From positions 327,135 to 354,247 of the forward strand of contig WELB01000082.1 of the NCBI GenBank assembly GCA_009602725.1: DNA of 27,113 nt, in the 5' to 3' direction. The notes beneath the pieces were generated by a model. That model worked only from the letters and a program-made list of their open reading frames with translations. It ran no database searches and had not been told where the DNA came from. The position numbers were made by a program, and so were the translations under genes. The DNA is from Spirogloea muscicola (lineage: Eukaryota > Streptophyta > Zygnematophyceae > Spirogloeales > Spirogloeaceae). This document shows positions 13,186-27,113 of the stretch, piece by piece (the first letter of the stretch is position 1; each line of letters starts with the position of its first letter).

Positions 13186-14590
<1,405 letters not shown>

Positions 14591-15860: not shown

Positions 15861-18800
15861 ATGACGGCGATGACGGCCGCTGTCGGCGCTGAGACTGTCA
15901 TCAGTTGTCGCGCGCCCGGGGGGGGGCCGGTGGCCGAGGTCCCCCCGCCCGCGGCGGCGGCGGCGGCGGCAGCGGCGGCCGCAGAGTTGNNNNNNNNNNN
16001 NNNNNNNNNNNNNNNNNNNNNNNNNNNNNNNNNNNNNNNNNNNNNNNNNNNNNNNNNNNNNNNNNNNNNCCGGGCGGCGGCGGCGGCGGCGGCGGCGGCG
16101 GGCCGCGCTATGTGGACGACGACGCACCCGAGGACCTGCTGCTGCGCGACCTCAAGACGCTGCGGCGGCGCATGTTCGAGCTCGGCCGCACCACCGCCGG
16201 CGGGTGGCCCGCCGTGCGGCCCGCCGAGTACCTCGCGCCGTTCCTGGAGGCGGTGCGGTCCGTGGAGACGTCCGCGCTGATCACGGCCGCCGCCCTGGCC
16301 GCGGTGCACCGCATCCTGCGCCTCCGGGGCGCGCTCGGCGCCAGCACGCCGCACGCGCAGGAGGCGGTGCACGCCGTCATCGACGCCGTCACGGGCTGCC
16401 GCTTCGAGGTCACCGACCCCGCGTCCGAGGAGGTCGTGCTTATGAAGATCCTGCAGGTCAGCGCCACACAGCGGCAGAGCCCTCACCCTGGCCAAGCGCC
16501 TGTCAGTTGCAGTAGGCGCCATTGCCATGTCGTGGCCGTCAGGCCCGCGGGTTTCCGAGCAAGCCACCGCTTCCTGCGCATACAATGTCCACATTGGCAT
16601 CTTTGGTACGCTCGGCGGTGGTTGATCATGGTCTGCAGGCGCCACCAGGCTTTGCCAGCCAGCCACCCTCGCTTCACCAACCGCCGCAGCCAGCGGCGGG
16701 GCTGACGACGACTGCTGGCGCCGAATGCAGGTGCTGCTAGCGTGCCTGCAGTGCGAGGCTGGGGCGCTGCTCACCGACCGCGACGTGTGCAACGTCGTCA
16801 ACACGTGCTTCCGCGTCGTGCACCAGGCGGCAGCCAAAGGCGAGCTGCTGCAGCAGATGGCCTGCCACACAATGCAGGAGATGGTGCGCACGCTCTTTGC
16901 GCGCCTCCCGGATCTCCCGCCATCGGCTCTGGAGGACGACAATGAGGCCGCAGCTGCAGCCTTTGCCACCGAAGGGACACTCTCTGTGCCTGAGGTTGAC
17001 CCTGAGATGCGGCAATCGTCGCCGGTGTCCGCCCAAGTTGGCGACAACGAGGGCGGGCTCAGGCCCAACGGACCGGCCATGCCTTCAGTCAATGGTCAGC
17101 TGGAGGTACGCATGGGGTTGGCATCTGAGCTGTGACATTGGCAGCTTACAGTCATCATAACAAGCCTGCTCAGCAGCTGCATTGAGGTGAGAGTTGACAG
17201 TGAGTGATAAACTTTGGGGCGTGGGCCCCCTGTCTGTCTGCAGGACGACAGCACTTTGCCGTCGTCGTCATCGCTTGAGGAAGCTTCGCAAGCAGAAGTT
17301 ACTGGTGCAACTGATACTGCCGGAGGCAGCGATCCTGCAGTGAGCACGGCAACAGATGCGAGCTTGGCAGAGGGCCGGCTTCCTGGCAGCCTTGACTTGG
17401 CGAGTGATGCTGAGGGCAGCAGCCCTGGCAGCAGGGGTCGGCCACCGCTGCCGCCGGGGTCGCGGCCTGCGCGGCCGGCGCCGCTGGACGTGGGGGCAAG
17501 CCCCAGCGAGGCGGCGGCAGCAAGCAGTCCCCGGCGCCTGGCAGGGAGTCCGAGCAGCCGGCGGTCGAACGAGGCGGCGCTGGGGCAGGACGCTGGCCCA
17601 GCAGGCAGCACGATTGTGGGACGGCCACACGGCGTGCCGTGCATGGTGGAGATCTTCCACTTCCTTTGCTCGCTGCTCAGCTTGGACGACGCCGCCGCAG
17701 GGCTGGGCTCTGGGCGGCCCGGGGGCGGCGGTGGTGAGGAAGACATGCCGCTGTTTGCGCTGGGCCTCATAACCACAGCACTGGAGCTGTGCGGGCCGGC
17801 AGTGGCGGACCACCCAAAGCTCCTGGCGCTTGTGCAGGATGAGCTCTTCCGTTCACTCATGCAGCTGGGCCTGTCGACAAGCCCCCCATTGCTGTCGCTT
17901 GTCTGCTCCGCCGTACTGTCGCTGTACCAGTTCCTGCGCCGCCACCTGAAGTTGCAGCTGGAGGCCTTCTTCGTTGTCAACATCGTGCGCCTGGCGCAGG
18001 GCAAGTACGGCGCAAGTTACCAGCAGCAGGAGGTGGCCATGGAGGCGCTCGTGGACTTTGTGCGCCAGCCGCCATTCATGGCCGAGATGTTCGCCAATTT
18101 AGATTGTGACATCACATGCAGCAATGCGTTCGAGGACCTCACATCGCTGCTCTCGAAGTCGGCCTTCCCTGTCAACTCCCCGCTCACGACAATGCACGTC
18201 CTTGCGCTGGATGGCCTGCTGGCGCTGGTACATGCGATTGCGGGCCGTGTCGATGCACTTGCAATCACGCCGATGACCTCGGCAGCGTTGGCTGGAGCAG
18301 GCGACAACAGTGAGCAGACGGCCCACCTGCCCTTCTGGACGGCAAGGTGCGACTATGGCGACCCAGCGCAGTGGGTGGGCTTCGTGCGCGCGCGCAAGCA
18401 CGTGAAGCGGCGGCTCGCCATTGGCGCGGACCACTTCAACCGCGACCCCAAGAAGGGCCTCGAGTTCCTGCAAGGAGCGGCACTGCTGCCAACGCCCGCC
18501 GATGCGTCGTCCGTTGCCTGCTTCTTCCGGTACACACCGGGCCTCAGCAAGAGCTTGCTGGGCGAGTACTTCGGCGACCCCGAACCATTCCACATTGCTG
18601 TCCTGCGTGCCTTCACGGCGCTCTTCGACTTCACCGGCATGCCGCTTGACGCCGCGCTGCGCACGTACCTGGAGTCGTTCCGCCTGCCAGGCGAGGCGCA
18701 GAAGATTGAGCGCGTGCTGGAGGCATTTGCGGCGCACTATTACGACCAGTGCCCGGAGCTGCTTCCAAGCGAGAATGTTGCCCACATCCTGTCCTACTCT

Positions 18801-21799
18801 ATCATCATGCTCAATACGGACCTCCACAATCTGCAGGTGAAGCGCAAGATGACGGAGGAGCAATTCATACACAACAATCGAGAGATTGATGCTGGCAAGA
18901 ACCTGCCACGCGAGACGCTCGCCGAGCTCTACAAGTCCATCGCACGCAATGAGATTCGGATCTCGTCCGATGGCAATGCGATGCATGGTGCGCCTGAGAT
19001 GACCTACAGCCGCTGGATCGACCTCATCCGCCGCTCGCAGACAGCCGCGCCCTACATCTTGGCAGGCAGCGCGGCGGCGCTGCTGGACCACGACATGTTT
19101 GCCATCATTGCCGGCCCGACAATCGCGGCTATCTCCGTCGTGTTCGACCACACGGAGGATGAGGAGGTTCTTCAGGAATGTATGGAGGGCTTCCTGGAGG
19201 TCGCCAAGATCTGCGCGCGCCATCGGCTGGAGGGCGTCCTTGACGACCTCGTCGTTTCGCTCTGCAAGTTCACGACGCTCCACAATCCGTCATCTGCGGC
19301 CTTCGCCGATCCCGTCCTTGTCTTCGGCGAGGACCTCAAGGCGCGCATGGCCGCCATGACGGCTTTCACGGTTGCCAACCGGTATGGCGACCATATCGGC
19401 CCCGGGTGGCGCAACATTCTGGACTGCATTCTCCGCCTCCACAAGCTTGGGCTTCTGCCGTCAAAGGTGGCGGCCATGACGGAGGCTGGAGACGAAGCCA
19501 GCGACGGCACCGACTCGGGTGCTGTGCCGCAACCTGTCGTGGTGGCACCGCTGCAGCCTACGGGCGCCCGCAAGCGCTCGACCGGCCTGATGAGCCGCTT
19601 CAGCCAGCTGCTGCTGCTGGACGGCGACGACGCGCGTGCTCAACCGACGGAGCAGCAGCTGGCAGCGCACCAGCGCTCTCTGCGGGCCGTCGAGGTGTGT
19701 CACATTGACCAGCTCTTCACCGACAGCCGCTTCCTCCAGGCGGACAGCCTGCAGCAGCTGGCCAAGGCGCTCGTGTGGGAGGCTGGCCGTCCTCAGCAGG
19801 TGCCGCAGAAGGGCGGCGGTGGTGGCGCCGGCGGTGCCGCCGAGGACGAAGACACGGCCATCTTCTGCCTGGAGCTCCTTATCCTGGTTGCGCTGACGAA
19901 CCGGGACCGCATCGCACTGCTGTGGCCGCTTGTATACGAGTACATGTCCAGCATTGTAGCATCAGCGACCGCGCCGGGCCCGCTAGTCGAGAAGGCGGTC
20001 TTTGGGCTCCTCCACATCTGCCAACGTCTGCTGCCTTACAAGGAGGAGCTAGCCGATGAGCTCCTTCGGTCGCTGCAGCTCATCTTGAAGCTCGACGCCC
20101 GGGTTGCTGACGCCTTTTGTGAGCGCATCACACTGGAGGTCAGCCAGCTCGTGCGCACGAGCGCTGGCTATGTCCGCTCCGCAATGGGCTGGCGCACCGT
20201 CTGCTCGCTGCTGGCCATCACTGCACGCCACCCCGAGGCCTCGGAGGCGGGTTTCAGCGCGCTTGAGTTTCTCATGGCCGACGGCGCACACGTCACTCCG
20301 ACCAACTATGTCCCCTGCCTGGACGCTGCGCGGCAGTTTGCCGACGCACGGATTGGCGGTGTAGAGCGCTCGCTCAAGGCCCTCGATCTGCTCGTGGGCC
20401 TTACCAACAGCCTGCAGCGGTGGTCCATGACTGTGGTGAAGGATGCCATGGCCTCCAGCCCTGCCAAGGCAGCTGCGGCTGAAGTGGCAGAGGCTGAGCA
20501 GGGGGTGCTAGAGGCCGACGAGAGCACAAGCCAGGGTGCGCTGGAGCTGGCGGAGCTGTGGCAGCGGCTGGCGCACGGCCTGCGGCGCGTGAGCGGGGAC
20601 CATCGGGAGGAGGTGCGGAATCATGCAATCCTCAGCCTGCAGCGGTGCCTCCTGGCGGCGGAGCACATCTATGTGCCCCTTTCAGCGTGGGGCCCCTGCT
20701 TCGACCAGGTGTGGTGCTCTCGCTCGCCGTTGTCGTGCTCTCCTGTCCCATGGTTCAGTATCACAGTCTTGTGCCTCCAATCTGCTGCTAGAGAAGGTAG
20801 CGCAGGCCTATATGTCATGGGTCATTTTACCAGACTGCACCTTGTGAGGGACTCCAGAAAGTGTATAGTCGCCCATATCACCTTCCAAGTCTGTGTGCTC
20901 ACAGACCTCTTGTGACTGTGACATTTGCACAACAAGCTGATGTCATTGGATGCAAGCTGCAGGTCATCTTTGTGATGCTGGACGACTTGCTGGAATGTGG
21001 CGTGCGAGAAAAGCCAAAGGACTTCCGGGCCATGGAGAACACTCTTTACCTTGCTATGAAACTACTCTCAAGAATACTTTTGCAGTTCCTCGAGAAGCTT
21101 TCGACCCTCTCAACGTAAGACAGCTCTCCCATGCTCAACCTCAACTGTTATGTTGTACTCATGTTGTTTGAGCTCAGATTCTCGCAAAATAGTAATTTTC
21201 CTGCAAGTCTTTCTTAGCAGTAAATACTTCTGCTTCTCACCTACTGGAATCGACCAACATGGCGTGCTGCTGTGTCTATGTACTTATCTGGTATTTGACT
21301 GCTGACGTGGAACCTCAGCTCAGAAAAGGCTAGTGCTTGATCTCGTGCACGCAGATTCCGGGGCCTATGGCGGGCGGCGCTGACGCGCATGGAGATGTAC
21401 ATGAAGGCGAAGGTGCGGGGCGGGAGCGAGGAGCTACGAGAGAACATCCCAGAGCTCCTCAAGAACCTGCTCCTGGTCATGCATGCTCGCGGCGTTCTGG
21501 TGCCAGCAGCCACGCCCTCTGGCGACTCGCTCTGGGAGCTGACGTGTCACCACGTGGAGGGCATATCCGCAAGCCTTATTGCTGAGCTCTTCCCCCCGCC
21601 CCCGCCTGCGCCACGTTCACCAGAGGCTGAGAGCACCCAGCCTCTGCTTGCGGAGCAGGACCAGTCGCTTGCAGTCGACAGGGCAGAGCCGCTGGCGAGT
21701 GTTGTGGTGGCCAAGGGCGGCCACGACAGCAGCACTGAGACAAATGGTGAGAATGGGCAGCTGGTCACAGAGCAGGGAGGTCTTCTGACCAGGTTGTGA
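15861..21799 (+). CDS. GNOM: GNOM/GBF1-class ARF guanine-nucleotide exchange factor (Sec7 domain), gap in 5' part
   Basis: It loads GTP onto ARF GTPases for coat recruitment at Golgi or endosomal membranes. Exons: (gap)..16456, 16731..17105, 17244..20708, 20963..21114, 21355..21799, all phase-consistent. The DCB region reads RFEVTDPASEEVVLMKILQ then VVNTCFRVVHQA, near-identical to plant GNOM. A low-complexity Ser/Ala/Gly/Pro insert (about 17244-17630) precedes VEIFHFLCSLLS, and the HUS box NLDCDITCSN follows near 18100. The Sec7 domain (about 18390-18965) has the catalytic glutamate in FRLPGEAQKIERVLEAF (codon 18693) and the YSIIMLNTDLHN motif. HDS-type helical regions follow, ending in FRGLWRAALTRMEMYMKAKV and DSLWELTCHHVEGIS. 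The N terminus is uncertain: an ATG at 15861 opens a frame into a poly-Ala stretch and the 80-N gap, and after the gap the frame differs unless the true gap is not 80 bases. A TGTAA follows at 21947. Confidence 0.95.
15990..16069. other. assembly gap (80 N)
   Basis: A run of 80 undetermined bases is flanked on both sides by GGC-type low-complexity DNA. It falls in the first coding exon of the ARF-GEF. The given length may be an estimate, because the reading frames on its two sides do not agree. Confidence 1.
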
Positions 21800-23186: not shown

Positions 23187-26100
23187 CTAGTCCTCATACA
23201 CACGGCACTCGGGCGTCTCTGGATTGCCCGCACAGTAGGCCTCCAAGGGATCTGCAGAGCTGCTCTCTCCACCTGAAGCGCCATTGCCAGTTGAGCTGCC
23301 ATCGACCGGGGCACCTTGAGAAATGGTGGTGCCTACTCCTTGCTGCTCTTCAACCTCCTGTTTGCAAGAACCACAAACCCACCCTGTCAAACCAAAATTG
23401 CAACAAGCACAGCACGATGTGCACAGCTTTCATTCAAGTGGCCCTACCACTGAGCTTGAGCGTGAAGAAGTGCAAGTAGCGACACCAGGTGAAGGCCTCA
23501 AGCCTCACCTCTGGGTCAGAGCTTGTGCATTCTCGAGTGATGACATTGCACTCTTCTGCAGCCTCCGTCTCCAAAGCTTCACCCTGATATTCCTTCTCCA
23601 CAGCGAACGTACAGTCAACTTTCGATGAGTGTCCCTAGACTACGCAAAAATGCCAGCATGGACAGAGGTACAGATGCACAAGATGCACAAGAGGTGAACG
23701 CGCCAAAAAGGACAATACTTGTCTTGCAAGTGAAACCCATCATCTATTCATTGAGTACTTCGGTACAACTTGAGACAATTAGAAATTTATACGGGGAAAG
23801 GAGAGTGGCAAAGTATGGCCGAGGTAGACACTTTACCAAATTTTGTCCAGCAACAGTGGCGGCTGACCCGTTTGTTGCCGGAGGAGGAGACTGCTGCTTA
23901 TTCGAGGTGTAAGCTTTCTCCGCAATGTCCAGTTCAAGCTGGAGTTTGCCCTGAGACCAGTGGTAACGTCAACAAAGTCAGCTCTATGTAGCAAGCTGTT
24001 GATGATCTCAGATGGCGCAAGCAATTTGCAAAATAGGAGTAGCTAGAGCTAGAGCTAGAAGCCTATCCTCCACCTGACTACCTTCTGAGGACCTATAGCT
24101 CGTTACAAGCAACTCACCATGTCAATCTCGAGGTAGCGGGCGAAGGTTCTGGAGATGGCAACTTGCTGCAGCCCATAGGTGTGAAAGGACGACATGGCTA
24201 GTCAAATAGGATGGCAGTGACTGGTATGATACTGATGCTGTCACTTTGAGAGTCATGGTGAGCAAAAGTGCTAATGATGTCAACTATATCACCCCAATTC
24301 ACTCAGATACTCAGGCCCTTGACAGGCTGACTCAGCTTGAGAGTCGCATTGCTCTGTGACTGGAAGCAGTCTAACTCTCACGTAAGCTACCTGGGCCTTG
24401 CTGCTCCACTTCTGTAACCCACATACCTGTGCAGCACCCCAGTCAGTCTTGGAGTTGCCGTGAACTCCTCCTGCACAGCGTCCTTGATATATCTCTTTGG
24501 AGATAAAAGTCAACTCCTCCTGCCTTCCGTCTGATCAAGCACTGCAACAAGTCAGTCTGCTGCTCACAGCAGCAAGAACGCCCACGCAACATACACAAAG
24601 TAGTCCTCAGAAACCATCCACATTATTATTTAGTCATTTGAGGGGGTTCTTGCCGCTTCAGCACAACCTTTCCTGCTCGCATGCACACCACATTACAGGG
24701 AGACCTTGCATTTAATCTAATACAGCTCATTTGCATTCTTCCCTTTCATTCACCTAGAAGGTGGTCGTGGACTTTCTGCCAGCACTCAATGTATGGATGG
24801 GCCACTGGTCTTGCTAACCTCACCACCTTCACTGCCTCATCTATGGTCATGCCCTGCCACCCCCAGATGCTTTCAAGACTTCAAGACCATAGCCAAGGCA
24901 AAGCACAGAAGTCAATACATAGTGAAACATAGGCTCCAAAAAGGACTGCATGTCAAAGGAGGGAGTACAACATTAACCTAGAGTACTTGTTTAACCAAAT
25001 TCCATTTGTATGGTTCCCCGTCTTGGCACAGCTAAAGGCTTGCAAGTAGGAAATGACTAAGCTGTACTTGTAAACCCGGAGTTGCCTGCATACGAAGAGA
25101 GCCCGCATGTTCTACTGCATACAGATGCACTTTGCAGCAAGGGGCAAGTACAACGAACCTGCACATAGGTCAGATAGCCAACAACAGCCAATGTGGCTCT
25201 GTTGATACCAGCAGTACAGTGTACATACACTTTGAAGCCACGTGAAACCAGCATGTTGAGCGTTCGAACAGCTTCAGGCAGCATCATAGCCTGTCATCGA
25301 ATATTATCAGAACAGATTGACATTTCAGCAGCAATATTTCTCAGTAGCACTGTTCTTCAACATTCATGGGTTTTCCTATGGTCTTGTCATCCTTACAAGT
25401 TGACAAGTGTGTTTCATGAGGACCTGGCAAGTCTTTGACCAGTTCTTGCCACGTCAAGTGGAATTGCCTGATGGTTTTGGAACATGTCAGATCAACATTA
25501 GGTACACTACATATGGACCAGCACACAACGGCCTCCACTACCAACTCAACTCCAGAATTATGGCAGGGATGCCTTGGCTGATGTGCCTGATGTATTACCT
25601 GATCACCCCGATCAAAGTCCCTTGTTGGCACCCGATGTAGAAGGACTCCCCTCTCAATGGCCCTGCTTCTGATGCTATGGTAAGGAATCTGTGTACTACA
25701 AACGGTTGCATTATCGCATTATGAATGCCAGAACCACATACATCATACTGAGTAAGGCAGCTAAAAATAAGCACCATACCCTAAATAATGTTTGTGTGAT
25801 GTAGAGGAGCTTTAGGGTGCTGGCGACGATGTCTGAAGAACATGCATTGTACACTTGAGGACAAAGTGCACTTTCAAGCAAGACGGGTTGGCACACCTCA
25901 AGAGCTTCAAAGCAGAGATCCGACTGCAAGTTCAATATTGCCTGCACACCACCTTCCTCCACCAACTGGTCCTGTCGAGCAGGTATGAGAGTTCCCATTA
26001 GACGCCAGAGTGTGTGGTAGACTGGCACCTCACTTCCAGTGGATGGAACAGTCAGTCATGTAGCTGGGTAGGCCTTCTTAAGCAAGAGCTGCAAGTCTGG

Positions 26101-26538
26101 AACAAGATTTTCTTCTCTCACTTACTATGTCAGCGCTGGAGCGAGGACACGATCCGACCATGATACTGGGGGTGATGTGGTCCCAATTCAATGTCCACTC
26201 CCAGCTTCCAAACGTAGGCGCTGTCCCCGCCTCATCTGCCTCAGCCTGCAAGTGCAATGATGCCTAATAAGCAGTGTGAGATCACTTTTTTCAGCGCACC
26301 TTGAGGGTCTCTCTAAGCCGTCTGTCCTTGTAGTCTGGAGCACGAACCTCTTATTAGGCTGAGGCATCTTCAGGCCTCCATGTACGTCTATCTGAGCAAT
26401 GAATGAGTAATTAATGATCCCAACACATTCAGCCACTATCCTGCAGCTGCCCGATGTAGCACCTTGCGTTTCTCCCACCCCTCCTGTTCTGCGCCCGACT
26501 TTGGTGGAGTCGTTGCTTGAGCCATACAGGCCACCTTC
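23187..26538 (-). CDS. plant-type dual-specificity phosphatase fused to a C-terminal CP12 domain
   Basis: Twelve exons: complement(26463..26538, 26300..26347, 26126..26245, 25897..25971, 25599..25688, 25159..25290, 24754..24853, 24427..24530, 24118..24165, 23837..23938, 23509..23634, 23187..23357). All junctions are GT..AG and in phase. From the ATG at 26525 the frame is 392 aa. Residues about 50-205 form a DSP domain: WTLNWDHITPSIMVGSCPRS, ILNLQSDLCFEAL, the acid loop RDFDRGD, and the P-loop HCTAGINRA (Cys157, Arg163). This resembles the SEX4/LSF glucan phosphatases but has no carbohydrate-binding module. Residues 206-260 are a helical extension. Residues 261-294 are a Ser/Pro/Ala/Thr linker. 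Residues 295-392 are CP12-like: a cysteine pair (323, 330), EVEE, and the GAPDH-clamp end DPLEAYC..NPETPECRVYED (Cys378, Cys387). A plastid location is likely; the first visible exon starts in phase 2, so an exon lies upstream. The substrate is unknown. Without transcript data, two genes remain the alternative. Confidence 0.85.
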
Positions 26539-27113
26539 CTGCACAGTCGGATCAGGATCGTGCATGAGCTACAGGCTGCCTGCCTTCTGAGACCAGGCCA
26601 AGGCCACCCACTGCCTGTCAGATGAACGACTCAGAGATCCCACACATGCTCGACGAAGTAGACAGCCAAGCACGCCAAGAAGTATGTGTGCTCGAGAAGG
26701 ATGTGCGCTGCTGCACTGAGCGTCCACAAAGCCAGCTGCCAGCCGCCTCAGCTGCAGGCGGGGCTGAGGGCGAGCAGCCCTACCTTGCTCCAGACGGATG
26801 CTGCATTGCAAGAGCCCGCCCGATCTCGCCTCCCTGCAGCGGCAGGACCTCGGGGCCTCTCATGAACGTTCCCAGCGACGGCCGCCGAGACGGTCAGCCA
26901 GGGGCGCTCGCCCATCCATTCGGCCATTGTCAGGACTCGAGAGCAACAGGGGGAGCCGCCCGCGCTTGACCATCCGAGGGGCAGGGCTCTGCCATAAGGC
27001 GGCAGCCTCCGCGGCGTACCTGAGCGCACGGAAGCCGCGCCCTGTCCGGCAGGCGCGACGACGCGGCGGGGAAGGGCAGCGCGGCGCCGGGCAGCGCCGC
27101 CGGGCCGCGGGCC
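26539..27113 (-). other. 5' region of the phosphatase-CP12 gene with a candidate transit-peptide exon
   Basis: Sequence upstream of the first firm exon becomes very GC-rich toward the window edge. On the minus strand, a donor (CTCAG|GTACGC, GT at 27019-27018) ends an open stretch from the edge. In the phase needed by exon 26463..26538 it ends ACRTGRGFRALR and would join to KVACMAQATT. It is rich in Arg, Pro, Ala and Cys and has no acidic residues, like a plastid transit peptide. No ATG is visible, so the gene may continue beyond the window. Other frames here are open too, so the call is weak. Confidence 0.35.

Follow-up and report, generated by a model that had tools for sequence, protein, structure and literature searches.

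Results

On the plus strand of the window, that is, the whole stretch of 27,113 nucleotides analysed in the present study, one long open frame (17211-20915) contains the Sec7 and HUS domains of an ARF-GEF, by eye GNOM/GBF1-like, and 13772-14590 encodes a zinc-knuckle (zf-CCHC_3) protein with a long tail rich in Ser, Asp and Glu. The minus strand carries one open frame that runs through the exons down to a stop at 23187, with GT..AG borders and phases read from the sequence. To the extent that genomic sequence alone allows, the fusion of a phosphatase and a CP12-type C-terminal tail in one gene is confirmed from exon 3 to the stop. The predicted protein has more than 380 residues and is composed of a tentative Arg-rich leader, a DSP-type phosphatase, a kept segment for which Pfam has no match (exons 8-10), a linker and the end DPLEAYCAGNPETPECRVYED.

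All exons lie on the minus strand. Exon 0 (27020-27113) is tentative and cut by the window end; it encodes the Arg-rich leader PAARRRCPAPRCPSPPRRRACRTGRGFRALR, which by eye is part of a transit peptide. Exon 1 (26463-26538, KVACMAQATTPPKSGAEQEGWEKRK) holds at residue 5 of alignment A1 a Met that is present in each of the three gene copies described below and may be the translation start if exon 0 is left out. It is followed by the weakly conserved exon 2 (26300-26347). The phosphatase domain begins in exon 3 (26126-26245), passes through exon 4 (25897-25971), exon 5 (25599-25688, with the acid loop RDFDRGD at 25622-25602) and exon 6 (25159-25290, with the P-loop HCTAGINRA at 25221-25195) and ends in exon 7 (24754-24853). 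The kept segment follows in exon 8 (24427-24530, DGRQEELTFISKEIYQGRCAGGVHGNSKTDWGAAQ) and exon 9 (24118-24165, QVAISRTFARYLEIDM), exon 10 (23837-23950) is linker, exon 11 (23509-23583, GEALETEAAEECNVITRECTSSDPE) carries the first Cys pair (C-x6-C), and exon 12 (23187-23357) encodes further linker and, at 23252-23187, the CP12-like end with the stop.

The earlier note on this DNA had described minus-strand exons with GT..AG borders and matching phases, which agrees with the sequence, and had not listed exon 2. A start of this exon at 26391 was rejected as it brings stops into the frame; from 26347 the exon is open in all three copies, and it varies at 5, 8 and 7 of its 48 columns in the three copy pairs. 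The junction 23837|23634 of the same note was wrong. Comparison of the copies shows variation at 11-12 of the 51 columns of 23634-23584, with a 1-nt deletion, hence a frameshift, in the C17 copy. By contrast, 23583-23509 varies at 1-3 of 75 columns, and no copy leaves the frame there; the start of exon 11 was therefore placed at 23583. For the junction 24118|23938, position 24118 was retained as the border of exon 9, and at the other side the acceptors 23950, which was used in the model, and 23938 are both in frame. We also considered a separate CP12 gene within the locus, which had been named beforehand as the outcome contrary to a fusion. In the exons checked, Met is absent from exons 10-12 in all three copies, and the last Met is residue 264, at the end of exon 9.

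Intron 10 is divergent (30, 50 and 49 of 252 columns in the three copy pairs). Intron 11 varies at 5, 13 and 12 of 151 columns, which is close to the level in exon 12 (5, 12 and 14 of 171); hence the junction 11|12 is not supported by exon/intron contrast, and the junctions of the tail rest on the splice sites, the frame, the divergent intron 10 and the dN/dS values given below. Introns 0 (27019-26539) and 11 (23508-23358) are more conserved than the other introns, with 18 of 476 and 5 of 151 differences between the window and C57, and they perhaps contain promoter or regulatory sequence.

Searching the genome (153 Mb), we found the locus three times, on C82, which holds the window, on C57 and on C17. 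The blocks are 84-91% identical at the DNA level. Exons 1-12 are equal in length across the copies, and 10 of the 12 introns (0-11) are unequal, only introns 2 and 11 being of the same length. Divergence in the three copy pairs was 0.035, 0.055 and 0.053 for exons 1-12 and 0.076, 0.162 and 0.156 for introns 1-11. Between the copies, which are not independent of each other, dN/dS was 0.30-0.605 for exons 1-2, 0.16-0.25 for exons 3-8 and 0.06-0.15 for exons 8-10 (exon 10 alone gives no ratio in one of the three pairs, where it has no synonymous change). For the tail (exons 11-12) it was 0.15-0.18, against 0.69-1.69 in the two wrong frames. The equal exon lengths, the lower divergence of exons than of introns and the low in-frame dN/dS together indicate that the tail is kept as protein, under purifying selection alongside the phosphatase, in all three copies. 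In alignment A1, the three copies are identical over residues 214-266 (exons 8-9, window 24530-24118), after the DSP domain. For the segment of exons 8-10 no Pfam domain was found at E up to 10, and NCBIfam gave one match, far under its cut-off. A genome triplication has been reported for Spirogloea muscicola (PMC11712027), and the finding of GapB and of genes in triplicate would be in keeping with a zygnematophyte like this species.

The frame of exon 0 is open and its GT donor present in all three copies, over 94, 97 and 67 nt in the window, C57 and C17, the last being clipped by the contig end. Exon 0 differs at 11 of 94 positions (window/C57), 12 of 67 (window/C17) and 14 of 67 (the other C17 pair), and the corresponding counts for intron 0 are 18 of 476, 37 of 475 and 40 of 476. 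The leader thus diverges more than the adjoining intron, unlike the conservation expected of an exon.

The DSP domain with HCTAGINRA and RDFDRGD, as first noted from the letters, is present. In the joined exons 3-12, Pfam DSPc (PF00782) scored 48.8 bits against a cut-off of 33.5 (E 8e-13), and the nearest PDB chains were LSF2 (3.1e-18), SEX4 (8.2e-18), laforin (2.2e-15) and LSF1 (9.7e-13). With a profile made from the three copies, the scores were 74.7 bits for SEX4, 73.1 for LSF2, 57.3 for laforin and 54.6 for LSF1. Aligned to LSF2 and SEX4, the sequence has the hallmarks of a DSP of the PTP superfamily, namely the HCx5R P-loop HCTAGINR and the upstream general-acid Asp in RDFDRGD, so that the catalytic Cys, Arg and Asp are all retained. 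The aromatic channel of LSF2 is reported in PMC5779698 to comprise Y83, Y85, Y135, W136 and F162. In the PDB alignment F162 is retained, Y135 and W136 are replaced by Ala and Leu (exon 4), and Y83/Y85 lie outside the aligned span. The P-loop CTAGINR has Asn before the Arg, where the glucan phosphatases have the Gly of AGxGR; this Gly is described for LSF2 and OsttaDSP in the same source and is found in the LSF2-like and SEX4-like exons of this genome. No CBM family was found by Pfam in exons 3-12, and none of the genome's 22 AMPK1_CBM matches lies on C82, C57 or C17. These features suggest a divergent phosphatase branch that is probably active and not specialised for glucan.

The tail was recognised by Pfam CP12 (PF02672) in the joined exons 3-12, then still with the uncorrected exon 11, at 29.6 bits against a cut-off of 22.7 (E 1.2e-6). 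The match covers profile positions 47-70 of 70 (24 positions) and lies at the extreme C-terminus; exons 10-12 with the corrected exon 11 gave 30.6 bits over the same profile positions. Against PDB, the tail matched the CP12 chains 6kez (1.3e-5) and 3qv1 (1.4e-5) and, weakly, GapB 2pkq (0.043). Of its last 21 residues, 16 are identical to the alga's own GapB and 13 to its CP12. Canonical CP12 is described in PMC9406205 as having an N-terminal Cys pair spaced 7-8, the AWD_VEEL core and CxxxPxxxxC. The last of these is present here in all three copies as CAGNPETPEC, with the Cys pair spaced 8 and a Pro, and the tail ends YED with the penultimate Glu kept in each copy. The N-terminal pair, CNVITREC, is spaced 6, not 7 or 8, in all three copies, and the AWD_VEEL core is absent, the copies having SSDPEEVEEQ, SSDPEEIEEQ and SSDPEEVEDQ. 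A full CP12 domain was considered, since the order A-EE-C..EC..EVEE resembles the N-half of CP12, yet Pfam finds no match for the N-half alone, and in a comparison with the alga's own CP12 its score was reached by 1394 of 5000 shuffles, and by 1797 of 5000 when the linker was included. The likeness is thus a suggestion only. Hence, of the C-terminal CP12-like domain claimed in the earlier note, the end holds and the complete domain does not; by its sequence, the tail is not a complete CP12 and has only the C-terminal end by which CP12 contacts GAPDH.

The nine genome-wide matches of PF02672 fall into three sets of three, namely CP12 of almost full length (profile 4-70), GapB ends and the tail copies of this gene. 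The own GapB end matches profile positions 51-70, and its label is backed by PDB (2.2e-13 to GapB chains). When the genome was searched with the tail, six exon places of the gene itself came first, followed by GapB and CP12 at three places each; the two remaining matches were weak, with E above 3. In addition, LSF2-like DSP exons were found at two places, C22 and C116, one of them matching LSF2 at 1.5e-21 and SEX4 at 1.3e-7, at best 1.2e-7. SEX4-like DSP exons were found at three places, C39, C49 and C24, each followed after about 1.2 kb by an AMPK1_CBM match in the same orientation. The C39 exon, the one that was read among these three, matches LSF2 (2.3e-12) and SEX4 (1e-11) alike, and it is the CBM on which the name SEX4-like is based. 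SEX4-like genes thus occur in three copies and LSF2-like genes in only two found; a third copy of the latter may have disappeared, may have diverged too far or may be absent from the assembly. Relatives of the fusion gave no match among viral contigs or genome contigs, neither of which is a eukaryote collection, so nothing is implied for other algae. CP12 matched in 65 of 146 genomes sampled from the phylum to which a Calothrix genome belongs. Among the matches listed, no open frame is longer than 248 aa, which is less than the length of this protein, and a smaller fusion is possible there.

Discussion

In the present study, we tried to explain what a CP12-type end may do on a phosphatase. The end CxxxPxxxxC is reported in PMC9406205 as the GAPDH-interacting end of CP12, A2B2 GAPDH and ADK3. 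Likewise, PMC4436894 states that the oxidised end of GapB and CP12 enters the active site of GAPDH and that in Chlamydomonas CP12 the penultimate Glu79 touches GAPDH Arg82. Since both CxxxPxxxxC and the penultimate Glu are present in our protein, docking on GAPDH appears to be the most likely and best-supported function of the tail, provided that the protein is plastidic, and it would most likely resemble the docking reported for the ADK3 tail. The fusion gene proposed in the earlier note is upheld, with purifying selection in three copies and with the very residues to which GAPDH binding is attributed in the literature. On the other hand, the docking on PRK that it had offered finds no sequence support, because the AWD core is absent and the N-half does not score above shuffles.

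We therefore propose, with a probability of about 0.5, that the nuclear gene encodes a DSP-type phosphatase whose oxidised tail docks it on chloroplast GAPDH and which is released by light through thioredoxin. In the dark, the pair C369/C378 (A1 numbering) would oxidise and the tail would fold; the folded tail would enter the coenzyme cleft of photosynthetic GAPDH, and the phosphatase would be carried on it. In the light, reduction of C369/C378 by thioredoxin would set the phosphatase free. A docking partner would be available, as the genome has GapB and CP12 genes. More tentatively, the CP12 tail could be a portable redox docking tag, which brings the phosphatase to GAPDH in the dark, perhaps recruiting it to the GAPDH/CP12/PRK complex, and places dephosphorylation of its target under the thioredoxin signal of carbon fixation; we regard this wider idea as possible and less probable than not. 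The protein is probably a chloroplast protein encoded by a nuclear gene, targeting being judged by eye from the partial leader of exon 0, and this plastid targeting is the weakest point of the docking proposal.

If translation begins at the Met of exon 1, the leader is lost and the protein could therefore be cytosolic, in which case the tail cannot meet photosynthetic GAPDH and would serve another partner or redox use. The conservation of this Met in all three copies and the divergence of exon 0, greater than that of intron 0, speak for such a protein. However, exon 0 is open in frame, its GT donor is kept and its indel in C57 is of 3 nucleotides; moreover, transit peptides generally evolve fast, and we consider the cytosolic location unlikely. 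The tail may also be optional, if the gene gives two products, the fused form and a tail-less phosphatase that stops just past exon 7. Reading through the exon 7 donor into intron 7 (24753-24531) leads in all three copies to a stop after two codons (HLLGE-stop or HILGE-stop), and TGTAA, a 3'-end signal in chlorophytes, occurs 56-60 nt into the intron in each of them. The copies are, however, not independent, and a signal from chlorophytes perhaps does not apply to this alga. In every copy purifying selection acts on exons 8-12, and therefore the fused form would be used, which makes the optional tail distinctly unlikely. An origin of the tail as a short motif by chance or convergence, with neither the ancestry nor the function of CP12, could be argued from the match to only 24 of 70 profile positions and from the non-significant N-half. 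This is highly improbable in view of the 16/21 identity to the alga's GapB end, the position at the very C-terminus, which GapB and CP12 share, the Pfam E of 1.2e-6, the low dN/dS of the tail and the ranking of the GapB and CP12 places directly behind the gene's own exons.

Regulation of starch dephosphorylation by the tail, on a glucan phosphatase of the SEX4, LSF2 or laforin kind, was likewise weighed. The nearest solved relatives are these very enzymes, and RDFD and the equivalent of Phe162 are retained, but the equivalents of LSF2 Tyr135 and Trp136 are Ala and Leu, CTAGINR stands in place of AGxGR, and the genome has separate LSF2-like genes at two places and SEX4-like genes at three. We give this explanation a low probability. 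Starch, named as one possible target in the earlier note, is thus doubtful as a substrate, because two glucan-contact aromatics are lost and the alga has SEX4-like and LSF2-like genes of its own; given the loss of these aromatics, the substrate is more likely to be a phosphoprotein, or else a small phosphate compound, at the GAPDH complex. Finally, the tail could act on its own phosphatase, its oxidation covering or distorting the active site, so that the enzyme is controlled by thioredoxin without stable binding to GAPDH. Precedents are the GapB tail, which regulates its bearer enzyme (PMC4436894), and SEX4, which is redox-regulated via a disulfide with the catalytic Cys (PMC12892837). The GapB tail, however, enters the coenzyme site of GAPDH, a site that the DSP domain does not have, and the residues kept here are those reported as GAPDH contacts; hence control of the own phosphatase seems improbable to us, and docking on GAPDH is preferred.

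CP12 tails on other enzymes are already known. PMC9406205 names such ends or modules for GapB, ADK3, argininosuccinate lyase, a cyanophage protein and CBS-CP12. In a full-text literature search that covered mainly open-access papers, no phosphatase bearing a CP12 tail was found. Compared with canonical CP12, the protein shares the C-terminal part, with the Cys pair spaced 8 around a central Pro and the penultimate Glu, and differs in having no AWD core, a first Cys pair spaced 6 instead of 7-8, and an enzyme in front. SEX4, LSF2, laforin and LSF1 share with it the DSP domain, HCx5R and RDFD; unlike them, it has no CBM that could be found, Asn for Gly in the P-loop, lost aromatic contacts, and an additional segment with the CP12-like tail. 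The CBS-CP12 proteins are similar in that a CP12 module is joined to another domain in one protein, but they carry CBS domains and are cyanobacterial (PMC9406205 and PMC3906501), and modelling is said in the latter to predict no binding to GAPDH; GAPDH binding is thus not a necessary property of every CP12 module, which speaks against the docking proposal. ADK3, likened here by description and not by sequence, is a different enzyme, likewise not a GAPDH, whose C-terminal tail is of the CP12 type and for which an interaction with GAPDH is reported (PMC9406205). The closest likeness in the residues is to the extension of GapB in A2B2 GAPDH, which shares 16 of the last 21 residues, CxxxPxxxxC and the YED end; here the extension is on a phosphatase rather than on a GAPDH subunit, and it has an additional Cys pair upstream. 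Such a combination may tie a phosphatase to carbon fixation by light and dark, and if this is true, the light/dark redox switch could also recruit the removal of phosphate signals. PMC4436894 asks whether further Calvin-cycle enzymes will gain such tails; the one described here would sit on an enzyme outside that cycle.
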